Shown here: piece after piece, positions 6,303 through 27,694 of the stretch
Position numbering within the stretch: position 1 is the stretch's first letter
Layout: every line of letters starts with the position of its first letter
Origin: Rubrobacter sp.
GTDB lineage: Bacteria > Chloroflexota > Chloroflexia > Thermobaculales > Thermobaculaceae
Direction of reading: 5' to 3'
Length of the DNA: 44,019 bases
Assembly: GCA_016781845.1 (NCBI GenBank)
Contig: JADDPP010000227.1
Coordinates: 1-44,019, forward strand
Notes under the pieces: model-generated
What the model was told of the DNA's origin: nothing
The model's input: only the letters and a program-made list of their open reading frames with translations
The model's database searches: none
Translations under genes and position numbers: made by a program

Positions 6303-6332
6303 TTGACAGGTCAGGAAAGGCTATGTTAAGGT
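6303..6332 (+). promoter_or_regulatory. sigma70-type promoter of the ilv operon
   Basis: A perfect TTGACA (6303-6308) is followed after 18 bases by TAAGGT (6327-6332), which keeps the key TA...T positions. It lies directly upstream of the T-box leader. The second T-box in this window has the same layout (TTGACA, 18 bases, TAGACT), which supports the call. The 230 bases before it (6071-6302) hold no gene that I can support. Confidence 0.6.
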
Positions 6333-6339
6333 AGGAACT

Positions 6340-6570
6340 AACAACGAAACGCTTTGACGGGGAGTACTAGGGAAGCGCGAGGCGCATCAGAGAGCCGGGG
6401 GTTGGTGAGACCCGGCAGCCGAGGTCCCGAACTCGCCCCCGAGCGGTCGGCCTGAAGAAGTCAGGGCCGGACGGGTAGCGCACGTTACAGCGCACGAGTG
6501 GCCGCTACGGCGGCAACAAGGGTGGTACCGCGGGAGCAGGCTCTCGTCCCTTCTGGGACGGGAGTTTTTT
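6340..6570 (+). promoter_or_regulatory. T-box leader, leucine specifier (CUC)
   Basis: Canonical T-box. Stem I can be drawn as CGGGG (6358-6362) with CCCCCG (6436-6441), and GGGA (6370-6373) with TCCC (6425-6428). Between them, the specifier loop has AGTACTA on the 5' side (the conserved AGTA motif) and GAACTCG on the 3' side, giving specifier CUC (Leu) at 6432-6434. The distal AGAGAG and GGTGAGA motifs of stem I are present. The T-box proper, AAGGGTGGTACCGCGGGAGC (about 6518-6537), has a TGGT bulge fitting a tRNA end ACCA. A terminator closes the leader. Uncharged tRNA-Leu should stabilise the antiterminator and let transcription proceed toward ilvB. Confidence 0.93.
6541..6570 (+). terminator. 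T-box terminator
   Basis: Stem CTCTCGTCCC / GGGACGGGAG with a TTCT loop (6541-6564) followed by TTTTTT. It is the OFF structure of the leucine T-box; its 5' side overlaps sequence needed for the T-box antiterminator. Confidence 0.92.
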
Positions 6571-6596
6571 GTTATCTACGGCACGAGGAGCAGCAG

Positions 6597-6749
6597 GTGG
6601 ACGTGGCGGTGAGGGCACAGGCTTACAGCAGGGCGGACGGGCGCGATGTGACGCTCGGGTCCGCGCGCGCCCTCGTCATTCTCCTCGTACTCGTAGTAGT
6701 AATCCTTATTGAGCTCCTTATCGGGAGCACACACAGCGCGGGAGGCTGA
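6597..6749 (+). CDS. branched-chain leader peptide (ilvL-like)
   Basis: Short ORF of 50 codons between the T-box terminator and ilvB. The GTG at 6597 has GAGGAG six bases upstream; a second in-frame GTG at 6648 would give a 33-residue peptide with a weaker ribosome site. Codons 6672-6722 read LVILLVLVVVILIELLI: 16 of 17 are Leu (7), Val (5) or Ile (4), and they include GTA, CTT and ATT, which are uncommon in the neighbouring GC-rich genes. The stop TGA (6747-6749) overlaps an antiterminator arm. Composition and position match the leader peptides of enterobacterial ilvGMEDA and ilvBN. A chance hydrophobic ORF is possible but unlikely given the adjoining hairpins. Expression is unproven. Confidence 0.7.
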   Translation: MDVAVRAQAYSRADGRDVTLGSARALVILLVLVVVILIELLIGSTHSAGG

Positions 6750-6820
6750 AACACCCAGGCTTAGAAGAATAACCACAGACAACACAAAGCCTCCCAAACA
6801 ACAGGGAGGCTTTCTTGTTG
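6740..6820 (+). terminator. second attenuator: antiterminator/terminator pair
   Basis: A perfect 10-bp stem AAAGCCTCCC (6786-6795) / GGGAGGCTTT (6804-6813) with an 8-base loop, followed by the U-rich CTTGTT, forms a terminator ahead of ilvB. The octamer GGGAGGCT also occurs at 6740-6747, overlapping the leader-peptide stop codon, and can pair perfectly with AGCCTCCC at 6788-6795 instead. A ribosome stalled in the branched-chain codons leaves 6740-6747 free (antitermination). A ribosome that reaches the stop codon covers it, so the terminator forms. The mechanism is inferred from the sequence. Confidence 0.72.
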
Positions 6821-6853
6821 AGGGCGGACACACAAGAGAGGGGGAGCGATGCC

Positions 6854-8572
6854 ATGACATTGACCGTAGACAGGCCGGAGACAGTTGAGCAGGAACCAGG
6901 GCCCGAACAGCCCAAACGCCTCAGTGGCTCGCGCATTATGTGCGAGGCGCTCGTCGCAGAAGGGGTGGAGATTATGTGGGGCTACCCCGGCGGTGCGATA
7001 ATGCCGTTCTACGACGCGCTGCCCGAGTACTCCATCCACCACGTACTCGTGCGCCACGAGCAGGCGGGGGCTCACGCGGCGGATGGATACGCCCGAGCCA
7101 CGGGTAAGGTGGGCGTCTGCATCGGCACCTCCGGGCCCGGCGCGACGAACCTCGTCACCGGCCTCGCCACCGCGTACATGGACTCCGTCCCCATGGTTGC
7201 CATCACCGGCCAGGTCGCGCGCTCCTTTATCGGCCGCGACAGCTTCCAGGAGACGGATATCGTCGGCATCACCCTCCCCATCACGAAGCACAACTTCCTC
7301 GTCAACTCCGCGGCGGAGCTTGGTGACATCATGCACGAGGCCTTCCACCTGGCCCGCAGCGGACGGCCCGGGCCCGTCCTCGTTGATGTCCCCAAGGACG
7401 TCCAGATAGAGGAAGCGCTCTACACCCCCGCCGTCCGCCCCCACGCCGTCCCGGAGGGAGCGGGCGGAGAGTATGCTCGCGCCGCCGACCTCATCGCCCG
7501 CGCCCAGAAGCCGCTCATTATCGCGGGACACGGCGTCATCATCGCAAATGGCTACGACGAGCTGCGCTCCTTCGCGGAGAAGTCCGGCATCCCCGTTATA
7601 ACCACTCTTCTGGGTCTGAGCTGCTTCCCGGAGTCGCACCCTCTCTCCCTCGGCTGGCCCGGCATGCACGGCCCCGCCCACGTCAACCGCGCGATAGACG
7701 AGGCGGACGTGATAGTTGCCGTCGGTATGCGCTTCGATGACCGCGTGACCGGCAAGCTGGAGACGTGGGCCCCGAACGCGAGGTTCATCCACATTGACAT
7801 TGACCCCGCCGAGATCAACAAGAACGTTCCCGCCGAGGTTGGCATCATTGCCGATGCCCGCGATGCCCTCCGAGCGCTCGTGGACGCCGTCGCCCCCGCC
7901 GACCACACCGAGTGGCTGCACTCCATCAAGCGCAACGCCCGCCCGGAGGGGCCGCCTAAGGACACGACTTTCATAACCCCCTCGACAGTCGTGGACGCCA
8001 TCAAGAGCGCCACGAACGGTGAGGCGCGGCTCGTCACGGACGTGGGCCAGCACCAGATGTGGGCCGCCCGCTTCTACGGCTACAACAAGCCGAACAGCCA
8101 CATCACCTCCGGCGGCCTCGGCACGATGGGCTACGCACTCCCCGCCGCGATGGGCGTCAAGGCGGGATGCCCGGACGAGCCTGTTTGGGTTGTCGCGGGC
8201 GATGGTGGCATTCAGATGAACATCCAGGAGCTGGCTACCATCGCGCAGGAAGGCCTGAATATCAAGGTCGCGATAATCAATAACGGCTACCTCGGCATGG
8301 TGCGTCAGTGGCAGCAGTTCTTCCACAACCGCAACTACTCCGAGACCCGCATCTCCTCGCCCGACTACGCGCTCCTCACTGCTGCGTACGGACTGCAGGG
8401 CCGCAGAGTCACCGAAAAGGAGGACGTGCAGCGGCAGGTCGAGTGGGCGATGAGCACCCCTGGCGCAGTCGTTCTCGAGTTTTGTATCTCACAGGAGGCA
8501 AACGTGTACCCGATGATTCCGTCCGGCGGCTCCGTCGCCACCATGATAGAGGAGCCGGAGGTGGTCGAGTGA
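6854..8572 (+). CDS. ilvB: acetolactate synthase, large subunit
   Basis: ThDP- and FAD-dependent enzyme joining two pyruvates to 2-acetolactate (valine/leucine), or pyruvate and 2-oxobutyrate to the isoleucine precursor. 572 residues, usual family length. Catalytic Glu69 lies in VRHEQAGAHAADGYARATG; the ThDP/Mg motif begins with GDGG (Asp450) and ends with NNGYLGMVRQWQ. The ATG at 6854 was chosen because GGGGAG lies about eight bases upstream and the family N terminus begins near GSRIMCEAL; an upstream in-frame TTG at 6815 would fall at the edge of the attenuator hairpin. First enzyme gene of the operon; its GTGA stop overlaps ilvN. Confidence 0.97.
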   Translation: MTLTVDRPETVEQEPGPEQPKRLSGSRIMCEALVAEGVEIMWGYPGGAIMPFYDALPEYSIHHVLVRHEQAGAHAADGYARATGKVGVCIGTSGPGATNLVTGLATAYMDSVPMVAITGQVARSFIGRDSFQETDIVGITLPITKHNFLVNSAAELGDIMHEAFHLARSGRPGPVLVDVPKDVQIEEALYTPAVRPHAVPEGAGGEYARAADLIARAQKPLIIAGHGVIIANGYDELRSFAEKSGIPVITTLLGLSCFPESHPLSLGWPGMHGPAHVNRAIDEADVIVAVGMRFDDRVTGKLETWAPNARFIHIDIDPAEINKNVPAEVGIIADARDALRALVDAVAPADHTEWLHSIKRNARPEGPPKDTTFITPSTVVDAIKSATNGEARLVTDVGQHQMWAARFYGYNKPNSHITSGGLGTMGYALPAAMGVKAGCPDEPVWVVAGDGGIQMNIQELATIAQEGLNIKVAIINNGYLGMVRQWQQFFHNRNYSETRISSPDYALLTAAYGLQGRRVTEKEDVQRQVEWAMSTPGAVVLEFCISQEANVYPMIPSGGSVATMIEEPEVVE

Positions 8573-9105
8573 CCATAGCATCGAACGGCCACGGCCGGAC
8601 CCTCGTCGTGCTCGTGCGCGACAACCCCGGCGTGCTCACCCGCGTTGCCGGTCTCTTCCGGCGGCGCAACTTCAACATCGAGAGTCTGGTGGTCGGCCAC
8701 TCAGAGACGCCGGGCGTTAGCCGGATGACGGTAGTGGTCGCGGGTGGCGCGGCGGAGGTAGACCAGGTGGTCAAGCAGCTACTCAAGCTCGTCGAGGTGC
8801 TGGAGGTGCGCGATGTCTCCGACGGCTCCCCGCTGCTCCGCGAGATGGTGCTCATCCGCGTCGGCGCGGACGCATCGCAGCGTACCGAGGTGACCGAGCT
8901 CGCGAAGCTCTTCAGCGCCCGCATCATTGATGTCTCCCACGGCTCCATCACGCTTGAGATGACCGGCGCGGAGACGAAGGTGGACAACCTTGTCCGGCTG
9001 CTCTCGAAGTTCGGCATCCGCGAGATGGTCCGCAGCGGCCGCATCGCCATGGCTCGTGACATGTCCGACTACCCGGTCGAAACCGTAGAAGCGCTCAGCG
9101 CATAA
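8569..9105 (+). CDS. ilvN: acetolactate synthase, small regulatory subunit
   Basis: 178-residue regulatory subunit of acetolactate synthase. The N-terminal ACT domain (about residues 8-82; [21 protein letters not shown] and NIESLVVG are typical) binds feedback inhibitor, usually valine, and the C-terminal domain ([12 protein letters not shown]-type region) completes activation of IlvB. The GTG start overlaps the ilvB stop by four bases, implying coupled translation and equal stoichiometry. It is somewhat longer than the common 160-170 residues. Confidence 0.95.
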
Positions 9106-9118
9106 GGAGGAGGTACCT

Positions 9119-10159
9119 ATGACGACGACAGAAGCACGGATGTACTACGAGGCGGACGCCGACCTGGAGGCCATCAGGAACAAGCGCATCGCCATCATCG
9201 GCTACGGCAGCCAGGGCCACGCCCACGCCCTGAACCTGCGCGACAGCGGGCTCAACGTAACTGTGGGCCTGCACGAGACGAGCGCCAGCCGAGAGCGCTC
9301 CCGCGAGGAGGGCTTGGCCGTCGCGTCCGTTCGGGAGGCCGCCGAGGCCGCGGACATCATCATGGTGCTTATCCCCGACACCGAGCACAAGAAGGTGTAC
9401 GAGGAGTCCATTCAGCCCGTGATGCGCCCCGGCAAGACGCTGATGTTCGCCCACGGCTTCAGCATCCATTACGGCCAGATCCAGCCCCCCGAGGGCGTGG
9501 ACGTCCTGATGGTCGCCCCCAAGAGTCCCGGCCACATCATGCGCCACCTCTACACGCAAGGTCAGGGCGTGCCCGCGCTCTTCGCCGTCGGTCAGGACGC
9601 CAGCGGCACGGGCGAGCGCACAGCCCTCGCGTACGCCAAGGGACTGGGCTGCACCCGAGCAGGCGCCCTCCGCACCACGTTCGCGGAAGAAACGGAGACG
9701 GACCTCTTCGGCGAGCAGGCGGTGCTGTGCGGCGGCGTTACCGCGCTCATCAAGACCGGCTTCGAGACACTTGTCGAGGCTGGCTACCAGCCGGAGCTTG
9801 CGTACTTCGAGTGCATGAACGAGATGAAGCTAATAGTTGACCTGATGTACCAGGGCGGGCTCAACTACATGCGCTACAGCGTCAGCGACACCGCCGAGTA
9901 CGGCGACTACGTCTCCGGTCCCCGCCTCATAGACGACCACGTGCGCCAGGAGATGCGCGCCGTCCTCCGCGACGTGCAGGACGGGTCCTTCGCTCGCCGG
10001 TGGATAGAGGAGAACGAGCAGGGCCGCCCGAACTTCGAGCGCATGCGCGAGGCGGACCGCAACCACCAGATCGAGCAGGTCGGCGCCCGTCTCCGAGCCA
10101 TGATGAGCTGGATAGGCCCCGAAGCCGCTCCCCAGAAACAGGAGGCGAACCCCGTATAG
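9119..10159 (+). CDS. ilvC: ketol-acid reductoisomerase, class I
   Basis: Converts acetolactate to dihydroxyisovalerate (and the isoleucine homologue) with NAD(P)H and Mg2+. 346 residues, class I length. Rossmann motif [17 protein letters not shown] near residue 30; Mg ligands Asp195 and Glu199 in [14 protein letters not shown]-terminal knotted helical domain with [13 protein letters not shown]. The cofactor loop reads [12 protein letters not shown], so NADPH use is likely but not certain. AAGGAGG lies just upstream of the ATG, 13 bases after ilvN. Confidence 0.97.
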
Positions 10160-10485: not shown

Positions 10486-10496
10486 AGGAGAAACAG

Positions 10497-12119
<1,623 letters not shown>

Positions 12120-23087: not shown

Positions 23088-23144
23088 CTCACAGCTTGTA
23101 TACCACTTCAACCGGCAGCACCAAGGCGTTTGGACGGAACCTGT

Positions 23145-24722
<1,578 letters not shown>

Positions 24723-24904: not shown

Positions 24905-25241
24905 TAACAACCAAACAGCGCATCGGCGTTGACGGGGAAGAGTAACCGGGACGTAAGAGTACAGAGAACCGCGGAAGCTGAGAAGCGGGACTCCGAACCC
25001 CGGCCAAAAAGCCCCCCGAGCCGCGGACCGAAACTCGATAAGCCGTCAGGCTTAGGCGTCAGTAGGCTCCGCCGGAGTCAGCCTCCGTTACAAGGGCTGG
25101 AGTATCAAGCCTAACCGCATCGGCGGCGCGGGCGGCGTACTTCAAGAGGTCGCCATCGTGAGATGGCGGCGAAGTGGGGTGGTACCACGAGCGTCAGGCT
25201 CTCGTCCCCAGCGCGATCGCTGGGCGGGCGAGGGTCTTTTT
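24905..25241 (+). promoter_or_regulatory. T-box leader, lysine specifier (AAA/AAG)
   Basis: Second T-box. Stem I pairs CGGGG (24933-24937) with CCCCCCG (25012-25018) and CCGGG (24946-24950) with CCCGG (24999-25003). The loop between has AAGAGTAA on the 5' side (AGTA motif) and CCAAAAAG on the 3' side. Aligned with the leucine T-box, where the specifier ends one G before the C run, the specifier is AAA at 25008-25010 (or AAG one base on), both lysine codons. The T-box proper is GAAGTGGGGTGGTACCACGA (25171-25190), followed by a terminator. Lysine starvation should switch on the downstream aminoadipate-pathway genes. The CCC at 24998-25000 was considered as specifier but is needed for the stem. 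Confidence 0.88.
25199..25241 (+). terminator. T-box terminator
   Basis: Long hairpin: CTCTCG...CCCAGCG pairs with CGCTGGG...CGAGGG, followed by TCTTTTTG. It is the OFF structure of the lysine T-box. Confidence 0.88.
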
Positions 25242-25307: not shown

Positions 25308-26465
25308 ATGCCACTCCGTGACTTTGCGATAGTTGACTCCACCTTGCGTGAGGGCGAGCAGTTCGCCCGCGCGCACTTCACCACAGCGCAGAAACGCGAG
25401 CTCGCCCTCGCGCTGGATGGCTTCGGCGTGGAGTACGTCGAGATGACCAACCCTGCCGCATCGCCCGCTTCGTTCGAGGACGCGCGCATGGTGGCGGGAC
25501 TCGGGCTGCGGGCCCAGGTACTTGTCCACTGTCGCTGCAACCTCGCGGACGCGGAGCGGGCTGTCGCGACAGGCGCGCAGGGTGTGAACGTCCTCTTCGG
25601 CACCTCCCGGCAGCTCCGACAGCACTCTCACGGCCGATCCATCGAGCAGATCGTCGAGGCCGCTCGACAGGTGATCGGCTACCTGCAGTCCCAGGGCGTC
25701 GAGACACGCTTCTCGTGCGAGGACGCCTTCCGCACCCCGCTCGACACTCTGCTGGAGGTGTACGGGGCCGTGGACGCGCTAGGCGTTGACCGCGTGGGCA
25801 TAGCGGACACGGTGGGCGTCGCGGACCCGCAGGGCGTGCGCGAGGTGGTCGGGGCCGTGCGGGCCACGGTCCGGTCAGGAATCGAGTTCCACGGTCACAA
25901 CGATAGCGGCTGCGCCATCGCGAACGCATACGCCGCGCTTCAGGCGGGCGCCACCCACATTGACACTACCATCCTCGGCATAGGTGAGCGCAACGGCATT
26001 ACGCCGCTCGGCGGCCTCATCGCCCGGCTGTATGCCACGGACCGGGAGCTTGTGCGGCGCTACGACCTGCCGCGCCTGCAGCATCTCGACCGCCGAGTCT
26101 CCGAGATGACCGGCGTGCCGATCCCGTTCAACAACTACGTCACCGGTGAGACCGCCTTCTCCCACAAGGCAGGACTCCACACCAAGGCGGTGCTTTCCGA
26201 CCCCTCCAGCTACGAGGCGCTCGACCCAGCCGACTTCGGGCTGGAACGCCGGCTGGATCTGGGCCACCGCCTCACCGGCTGGAACGCCGTGGCCCACCGC
26301 GCGGCGTCGCTTGGGCTGACCCTGGACGAGTGCCAGGCACGCGCCGCGACTACCGAGATAAAGCGCCTTGCCGACCACGGACCCCTGAGCCCGGAGCGCG
26401 TGGACGAGGTGCTCCTGAGCTGGACAAACGTAGCACACCAAGGAGGACGCACATGGGCACTATGA
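25308..26465 (+). CDS. hcs: homocitrate synthase (aminoadipate lysine route)
   Basis: 385-residue DRE-TIM synthase condensing acetyl-CoA with 2-oxoglutarate. It matches the Thermus-type homocitrate synthase pattern along its length: DFAIVDSTLREGEQFARAHF, VLFGTSRQLR, the metal-binding EFHGHNDSGCAIANAY, and TTILGIGERNGITPLGG. It lacks the LeuA/CimA C-terminal regulatory domain, as expected for this type. A Re-citrate synthase or isopropylmalate synthase assignment is less likely because the leader T-box reads lysine and homoaconitase genes follow. Lysine feedback on the enzyme is known in relatives but cannot be judged here. Confidence 0.88.
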   Translation: MPLRDFAIVDSTLREGEQFARAHFTTAQKRELALALDGFGVEYVEMTNPAASPASFEDARMVAGLGLRAQVLVHCRCNLADAERAVATGAQGVNVLFGTSRQLRQHSHGRSIEQIVEAARQVIGYLQSQGVETRFSCEDAFRTPLDTLLEVYGAVDALGVDRVGIADTVGVADPQGVREVVGAVRATVRSGIEFHGHNDSGCAIANAYAALQAGATHIDTTILGIGERNGITPLGGLIARLYATDRELVRRYDLPRLQHLDRRVSEMTGVPIPFNNYVTGETAFSHKAGLHTKAVLSDPSSYEALDPADFGLERRLDLGHRLTGWNAVAHRAASLGLTLDECQARAATTEIKRLADHGPLSPERVDEVLLSWTNVAHQGGRTWAL

Positions 26466-27694
26466 GTGAAGAGATCCTCAGCCGCAAGCTGGGGCGCGAG
26501 GTACGCGCGGGCGAGATCGTCATCGTGCCAGTAGACTACGTGATGGCGCATGACCAGACCGCGCCGCTCGCCATCGAGAGCTTCCGGCGGCTGGGCATGC
26601 CGCTCTTCGACCCCCAGCGCACGATCATCGTGTTCGATCACATCATCCCTGCCGCGACCGTGCAGGCGGCGACCCTGCAGCGCGGTATCCGCAACTGGAT
26701 GTCCGAGGAGCGTGTCGGCAACTTCCTTCAGGAGGGCATCTGCCACCAGGTGCTCGTCGAGCGAGGCTTTGTCACTCCCGGCGCGGTGGTCGTCGGCGCG
26801 GACTCACATACCTGCACGTACGGCGCGCTCGGCGCGTTCGGCACCGGCATGGGCTCCACCGATATAGCCGTGGCGCTCGCGACTGGCAAGACGTGGCTGC
26901 GGGTGCCCGAGACGATCCGCTTCGAGCTGTCCGGCCAGCTGGGGCCGCATGTCTACGCGAAGGACCTGGCGCTCGCGATGTGTGGCGCTATAGGCGTGGA
27001 CGGTGCGAACTACCACGCGGTCGAGTACGGCGGCTCCGCCGTCCGCGCGATGAGCATCTCCGAGCGGATGACGCTCGCGAACATGGCTATCGAGATGGGC
27101 GGCAAGACTGGTCTCGTCGAGCCGGATGAGGTGGTGGACGAGTACCTCGCGGGCCGCGCCCGTGAAGAGTACGAGCCCGTGCTCCCTCGAAACCCCCGCT
27201 ACAGTCGCGTCGTCGAGATTGATGCCTCCAGCCTCGAGCCGATGGTAGCCCTCCCGCCCGACCCGGAGCATCTCGCCCCCGCCCACGAGCTTCAGGACCT
27301 CCCGATAGACCAGGTTTTTATCGGCACCTGCACCAACGGACGGCTCGACGACCTGGAGATCGCGGCGAGCGTCCTGCGCGGCCACACAATCAGCCCCCGC
27401 ACCCGCATGGTCGTGACTCCTGCGTCCAGGCAGGTACTGCTGAGCGCCATGGAGCGTGGCTACATCCAGACGTTCGTTGAGGCAGGAGCAACTGTCACAA
27501 ACCCCGGCTGCGGTCCGTGCATCGGGCGTCACCAGGGCGTGCTCGCTGCCGGGGAGCGGGCCGTCACCACTCAGAACCGCAACTTCCCTGGACGCATGGG
27601 CGACCCCACCGCGGAGATATACCTCGCGAGTCCCGCGACCGCGGCGGCGTCCGCAATCACGGGCTACATAACTGATCCAAGGAGGCTGAGCTGA
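26453..27694 (+). CDS. lysT: homoaconitase, large subunit
   Basis: 413-residue aconitase-family subunit, with the small subunit converting homocitrate to homoisocitrate. Cluster cysteines are Cys293 (GTCTNGRLDD), Cys353 and Cys356 (GCGPCIGRHQG); VVGADSHTCTYGALGAFGTGMGSTD is typical of the short LeuC/LysT group. On sequence alone it could be called LeuC, but a full leuCD pair exists at 12212-14217 and this copy is behind a lysine T-box. ATG 26453 has AGGAGG six bases upstream and overlaps hcs by 13 bases; ATG 26462 gives a four-base overlap. Confidence 0.85.
   Translation: MGTMSEEILSRKLGREVRAGEIVIVPVDYVMAHDQTAPLAIESFRRLGMPLFDPQRTIIVFDHIIPAATVQAATLQRGIRNWMSEERVGNFLQEGICHQVLVERGFVTPGAVVVGADSHTCTYGALGAFGTGMGSTDIAVALATGKTWLRVPETIRFELSGQLGPHVYAKDLALAMCGAIGVDGANYHAVEYGGSAVRAMSISERMTLANMAIEMGGKTGLVEPDEVVDEYLAGRAREEYEPVLPRNPRYSRVVEIDASSLEPMVALPPDPEHLAPAHELQDLPIDQVFIGTCTNGRLDDLEIAASVLRGHTISPRTRMVVTPASRQVLLSAMERGYIQTFVEAGATVTNPGCGPCIGRHQGVLAAGERAVTTQNRNFPGRMGDPTAEIYLASPATAAASAITGYITDPRRLS

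Follow-up and report, generated by a model that had tools for sequence, protein, structure and literature searches.

It is usual to regard T-boxes and leader-peptide attenuators as different answers, given by different bacteria, to the same problem. The closest known system to the locus described here is the T-box(Leu)/ppGpp-riboswitch tandem, which has been described as an AND gate (PMC9481103, PMC7583486) with 15 and 16 examples in the two orders of its elements (PMC9481103). As in the present locus, a leucine T-box with its own expression platform stands in series with a second starvation sensor ahead of branched-chain genes. In the known gate both devices must be ON and the partner is a metabolite riboswitch for ppGpp, whereas the partner found here is a putative ribosome-stalling leader peptide. 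No ppGpp riboswitch was detected in the window (i.e. the whole 44,019-nucleotide stretch of DNA that was analysed), as a T-box match (RF00230, 6345-6554) was the only Rfam match within these 44 kb to reach its gathering score.

Leader peptides of ilv genes are known in several phyla, including those of the Staphylococcus aureus ilv-leu (PMC5794164) and actinobacterial ilvB (PMC1262725) genes. The window shares with these attenuators, and with those of the Escherichia coli ilvL/ivbL type, a short ORF rich in Leu, Val and Ile codons, alternative hairpins and an ilv target. The known examples lack an upstream T-box, whereas the window attenuator lies 3' of one and has a three-strand layout in which the first strand (S1) overlaps the ORF stop. 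The Bacillus subtilis ilv-leu operon also has a CUC-type leucine T-box before ilvB, and leuA in the operon, but has no leader peptide and receives its Ile/Val input from CodY (PMC12452182). Tandem T-boxes, which are common (PMC12452182), similarly place two tRNA-charging sensors in series, but both copies bind tRNA directly whereas one stage of the window system would use the ribosome. Finally, the actinobacterial LEU element (PMC1262725) combines a leucine ORF with a structured element before leuA and so resembles the second stage of the leuA leaders L290-L309 described below; it has no T-box upstream, its target and structure are unlike those of the window ilvB attenuator, and the likeness is without model support.

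An earlier note on this DNA had proposed that a leucine T-box and a ribosome-mediated attenuator stand in tandem before ilvB and knew of no described case. None was found in open-access papers, most subscription papers being outside the coverage. As far as searched, the locus consists of known parts in a combination that is unreported in open-access papers and recurrent in the lineage. Four points go beyond the earlier note: an ancestral origin of the leader-peptide half, restriction of the Leu codons by tRNA, recurrence of the tandem at leuA and gltB, and an inferred gating of Ile/Val signals largely by Leu.

Elements of the ilvB leader

The leader precedes an ilvBNC-leuA operon and contains the following features.

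6303..6332, plus strand: promoter-like TTGACA, 18 nt, TAAGGT preceded by TG (by eye; sole candidate, 5' of both attenuators)
6345..6554, plus strand: leucine T-box, putative stage 1 sensor (Rfam RF00230, 106.5 bits, E 1.1e-22)
6432..6434, plus strand: specifier CUC (Leu) within GAACUCG (specifier position of the Rfam alignment)
6538..6570, plus strand: stage 1 terminator hairpin and U-run (pattern scan and folding, z -3.6)
6585..6590, plus strand: ribosome binding site GAGGAG of the leader ORF (sequence)
6597..6749, plus strand: leader ORF, GTG 6597 to TGA 6749, 50 codons, VDVAVRAQAYSRADGRDVTLGSARALVILLVLVVVILIELLIGSTHSAGG (translation; branched-chain ORF in the same place in four relatives)
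6672..6722, plus strand: putative regulatory codon run LVILLVLVVVILIELLI, 16/17 Leu, Val or Ile (Leu codons only CUC/CUU)
6713..6728, plus strand: small hairpin GCUCC..GGGAGC inside the end of the codon run (predicted fold)
6740..6747, plus strand: S1, putative antiterminator strand GGGAGGCU, overlapping the ORF stop (repeat, folding, covariation)
6786..6795, plus strand: S2, shared strand AAAGCCUCCC (complementarity, folding)
6804..6813, plus strand: S3, putative terminator 3' arm GGGAGGCUUU, then CUUGUUG (folding)
6854..8572, plus strand: ilvB, acetolactate synthase large subunit (TIGR00118, 704 bits)
8569..9105, plus strand: ilvN, acetolactate synthase small subunit, start approximate (translation by eye)
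9119..10159, plus strand: ilvC, ketol-acid reductoisomerase (TIGR00465, 448 bits)
10494..12119, plus strand: leuA, 2-isopropylmalate synthase (TIGR00973, 701 bits)

Judged by its sequence, the 6345-6554 region is a genuine leucine T-box, with tRNA binding and an effect on read-through being inferred only. Its score exceeded the RF00230 gathering score of 93 bits, meeting membership by covariance model, the proposed CUC specifier lay at the specifier position of the alignment, and pattern scanning and folding agreed with the terminator to 6570 that had been proposed. The 5' arm of this terminator is also used by the T-box antiterminator. Leucine tRNAs with GAG, CAG, CAA and UAA anticodons were found in the window genome (G000), and the discriminator A of tRNA-Leu(GAG) fits the T-box UGGU bulge. 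Hence the CUC specifier fits both the pathway (i.e. ilvBNC-leuA) and a genomic tRNA. The promoter-like 6303-6332 sequence was absent from the output of a 9-of-12 consensus promoter scan; by eye, TTGACA-18-TAnnnT with the same spacing and TG was also present in three relatives (G001, G002 and G003). Pattern scanning and inspection detected no internal promoter between 6570 and 6597, and parallel stages driven from a separate promoter were rejected on this basis.

The GTG of the leader ORF follows the end of the T-box terminator by 26 nt (about 15–30 nt across leaders). The coordinates previously assigned to this ORF, its GAGGAG site and its codon run were correct, and the run was the sole stretch of at least 15/17 Leu, Val or Ile in six frames of the window, the next independent run having 14. 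A chance origin of the run was rejected on this uniqueness and on an excess in leaders of the class over shuffles and the reverse strand. A direct repeat, GGGAGGCT, occurs at 6740-6747 and 6804-6811 with each copy being 8/8 complementary to 6788-6795, and S1:S2 was the best fold before addition of S3, in keeping with the idea that 6740-6747 can replace the terminator 3' arm. Complementarity of S1 in the window exceeded that of shuffles (P 0.013). The second terminator that had been placed at 6786-6813 stood as a hairpin, with 10 perfect pairs between 6786-6795 and 6804-6813 and with a z of -4.2 for the 6723-6822 stretch (0/200 shuffles equally stable), but not as a canonical terminator tail: the plus-strand U-run (UUUCUUGUU) is imperfect (7 of 9), as a result of which a terminator scan reported this hairpin for the minus strand alone. 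The hairpin is separated from ilvB by 40 nt and does not reach over the ilvB ribosome site.

Two further pairings were observed within the ORF. Sequences similar to the 6713-6728 hairpin occur in G001, G002 and G005; a pause or 1:2 hairpin is possible, the role being conjectural. The ribosome site of the leader ORF (6583-6603) is 71% complementary over 21 nt to its own CUC run (6668-6688) and appeared similarly so, by eye, in relatives. This complementarity could sequester the site, or could follow from the purine richness of such sites and the pyrimidine richness of the codons.

Conservation, codon choice and age of the leader-peptide attenuator

The window genome was compared with six genomes of the same family, of which four (G001, G002, G003 and G005) had a readable ilvB leader. 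All four relatives contained a T-box in this leader (RF00230, 131–147 bits), the GAACUC specifier was present in all five leaders, and the order of T-box, terminator, Leu/Val/Ile ORF, S1, hairpin and ilvB was kept in 5/5, with IlvB being 74–80% identical to that of the window in G001, G002 and G003. The earlier note would have taken as a refutation any relative with a T-box in which the ORF or the GGGAGGCT duplication was lost; none was encountered among the five readable family leaders. The S1 strand reads GGGAGGC(U) in G002, G003 and the window; in the sisters G001 and G005 it reads CGGGAAGC, with one A-C mismatch, and due to this mismatch these two did not pass an ungapped S1 shuffle test. 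When the transcript was folded up to S2, S1:S2 was the best structure in 5/5 leaders, mismatched sisters included. Addition of S3 made the terminator the best structure in all five (window arms, -17.8 kcal/mol for the terminator versus -14.9 kcal/mol for the antiterminator), a predicted shift that is the one expected of co-transcriptional competition. The U-run after S3 was poor in G002 and G003.

A survey of the class to which this family belongs involved a search of 149 genomes and analysis of 102 ilvB upstream regions. An ORF with at least 9/11 Leu, Val or Ile preceded ilvB in 56% of these regions, as compared to 3% for the reverse strand and 0% for shuffles. Typical leader peptides end in LLSLVVVLLILTGLPLAGG directly before the stop or carry VSLILLVLVLLLSLIGGW a short way before it; only the Leu/Val/Ile content is conserved and not the sequence. 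Downstream of the ORF lies a hairpin with a 5' arm that complements a strand close to the stop codon; this hairpin has a full U-run in other class members, and U-poor tails also occur in leaders without a T-box. Own S1/S2 pairs scored 18.2 as compared to 16.3 for those of others, and 0/5000 permutations reached the own score (P 2e-4); the use of distinct arms removes kinship only partly, and some divergent species did not show this preference. In an 18-sequence alignment, S1:S2 pairs were present in 92% of cells versus 41–65% when slid, with one position changing from G-C to C-G and four cells from A-U to G-U. The proposal of a ribosome-mediated attenuator thus gained support from codon selection, from the tracking by S1 of its own S2 and from one double change.

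Codon choice differed strongly between leaders and genes. Leu was encoded by CUC/CUU in 358/414 cases in class leaders versus 194/611 in ilvB genes, Val by GUA in 143/202 versus 32/656, and Ile by AUU in 142/210 versus 134/605, with AUA never used. Within the window family alone, CUC/CUU accounted for 26/28 Leu codons of leaders versus 70/141 of ilvB genes (P 1e-5). This bias points to selection on tRNAs, beyond residues alone. By standard wobble, CUC/CUU are read by tRNA-Leu(GAG), the match of the T-box specifier; on codon identity, both stages would thus listen to one and the same isoacceptor.

Motif searches of the class set found no T-box before other class ilvB genes, and Rfam searches of a subset detected window-family members only. 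As none was detected in other class ilvB leaders, the leader-peptide attenuator is inferred to be the older, class-wide device, on top of which a T-box sits in the window's family. Before ilvB in family f8 (probably Herpetosiphonaceae; L015-L020, L124 and L126), a T-box motif and a Leu/Val/Ile ORF are both lacking, apparently through loss within the class.

The tandem at leuA and gltB, and other T-boxes

Use of the window leader as a query against 400 genomes of the phylum led to leuA of G028. Its leader contains a CUC T-box and terminator, then an ORF ending in MVIGQMAARNLDLLGLFLLSLLRPLGGARGALGGCP and a stop, with a leucine run of CUC/CUU, and CUGGGAGGC before the ORF stop, followed by a hairpin (CCGGCCUCCC/GGGAGGCCGG) ahead of leuA. 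Twenty leuA leaders were read, 19 of which were long enough to judge (16 from family f7 and 3 from family f13). A T-box was detected by motif and model in 19/19 (f7 16/16, f13 3/3), with eight below the gathering cut-off, including one cut by a contig end, and the specifier was GAACUC wherever its region was present. These leaders carry a short ORF with leucine codons 5' of a GCCCC...GGGGC hairpin motif (by eye only for L293 and L295), the leucine codons being few in the f7 group L299, L302 and L303. In f7, a second hairpin follows; in the leaders inspected by eye it matches a strand close to the stop of the ORF, some of these strand/hairpin pairs having altered letters (GGAGAC/GUCUCC). The second hairpin was absent in the three f13 leaders, and so stage 2 may there act on translation, by analogy with the proposal for the actinobacterial LEU element. 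As a separate observation, the last leucine codons of L290-L305 and L307-L309 (for example CUCUCCCUU, CUCCUU) appear able to pair with the ribosome site of leuA (GGGAGA, AAGGAG), a feature also of the actinobacterial LEU element. The ilvB gene of f7 has a leader peptide only, while in the window family leuA lies inside the ilv operon and this operon has both devices; in these families, therefore, T-box(Leu) stands before the operon that carries leuA.

In G003, a duplicate of the whole tandem precedes gltB (NF008730 fragment match; L310, C1 about 529,900-530,450, minus strand). Its T-box groups with that of G003 ilvB (100/99) in a T-box tree, and its specifier is CGC (Arg) instead of CUC. The leader ORF ends in VLSIGLLAAIEGG and a stop with few Leu, Val or Ile codons left, and S1, S2 and S3 are intact. 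Most inner branches of the tree are weak and long branches meet, leaving an origin from leuA, from leuS or by transfer unresolved by the tree.

Ten other T-boxes of G000, inspected by eye, lead into a gene, likewise identified by eye, without a visible leader ORF of this type (i.e. trpE, tyrS, thrS, glyS, argG-like, valS, metG, ileS, leuS and homocitrate-synthase-like). A second T-box within the window (24920-25212; 85.6 bits, below the cut-off) precedes homocitrate-synthase-like and aconitase-like genes (25308-27694), with a citramalate-synthase-like gene just upstream (23130-24722), and is possibly lysine-specific. In other families of the phylum, ilvB or ilvC is preceded by a pair of consecutive T-box cores (L232, L233, L240 and L257), the leading one being CUC where read, with no leader peptide.

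Proposed two-stage gate and competing explanations

Both parts, their order and conservation, the codon selection and the mutually exclusive pairing can be read from the DNA; tRNA binding, stalling, termination efficiency and AND behaviour are inferred. With this distinction, it is very likely that two attenuators act in series from one promoter. In stage 1, the CUC specifier would capture uncharged tRNA-Leu(GAG), and without capture polymerase would stop at 6570. Beyond this point, a ribosome would trail RNA polymerase along the 50-codon leader. With plentiful charged Leu, Val and Ile tRNAs, it would reach the UGA at 6747-6749 and cover S1, which would leave S2 to pair with S3 and terminate transcription near 6815. 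A ribosome stalled within 6672-6722 would leave S1, which is made before S3, free to pair with S2, allowing read-through into ilvBNC-leuA. Expression would depend on both gates being open, and Leu shortage would open both because the CUC/CUU codons of the leader belong to the isoacceptor sensed by the T-box. Shortage of Ile or Val would act only on transcripts passing or leaking through stage 1 and, by itself, would be expected to be mostly stopped at the Leu gate before it. The inferred design is for this reason leucine-dominant with an Ile/Val weighting, and not the symmetric sensor of three inputs that the codon run would suggest. A series design could lower leak and steepen the Leu response. 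Termination at the second hairpin could be weak or factor-dependent, given the imperfect U-run of the window and the poor ones of G002 and G003. Altered ilvB leader codons in Streptomyces coelicolor were reportedly without effect (cited in PMC1262725), which counts against the proposal.

These same U-runs of G002 and G003, with the mismatched S1 of G001 and G005, would suit a T-box that is the only active device, the downstream attenuator being a relic of the ancestral class-wide system made redundant by T-box gain; leucine shortage alone would be manageable by a T-box. Such a relic is an unlikely explanation, however, given that the codon run, codon choice, ORF frame and S1/S2/S3 persist in five genomes with IlvB only 74–80% identical, that the gltB duplicate of G003 keeps all three strands, and that poor U-runs are also a property of leaders without a T-box. 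We consider it very unlikely that stage 2 is ribosome-mediated but lacks intrinsic termination, with the hairpin serving as a pause, a Rho-dependent end or a switch of stability or translation. The window hairpin stops short of the ilvB ribosome site by 40 nt, and elsewhere in the class the same hairpin has its full U-run, although the imperfect plus-strand U-run, the three f13 leuA leaders without a second hairpin and the actinobacterial leuA elements with leucine ORFs, which seem to act on the Shine-Dalgarno box (PMC1262725), would all be accommodated.

The codon run could also be read as protein: LVILLVLVVVILIELLIG could span a membrane, in which case the ORF would encode a small membrane peptide with a function of its own, the S1 repeat being incidental. 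This is scarcely credible since conservation extends to Leu/Val/Ile content and not to sequence, codons are restricted by tRNA and not by residue, and S1, which overlaps the stop or is close to it, corresponds to its own terminator arm.

The two-stage gate, in which a T-box for tRNA-Leu(GAG) precedes a peptide attenuator with codons that belong to that isoacceptor, is probably a stable module of this lineage, although this is held with some reserve; it would have been kept or assembled at ilvBNC-leuA, at leuA and in a duplicated gltB copy with a changed specifier, with stage 2 codons tuned to the products of each operon. If true, a single transcript would, in nature, monitor one tRNA pool both through the tRNA itself and through stalled ribosomes. 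Stacking on one transcript for the same isoacceptor would make it possible to ask what each sensor contributes (i.e. a sharper response, a lower leak or integration of Leu, Val and Ile). With its 102 upstream regions, the survey also broadens ribosome-mediated ilvB attenuation to an entire bacterial class, for which no earlier report was found, and the window's family would provide an example in which one attenuator has been added to an older one.
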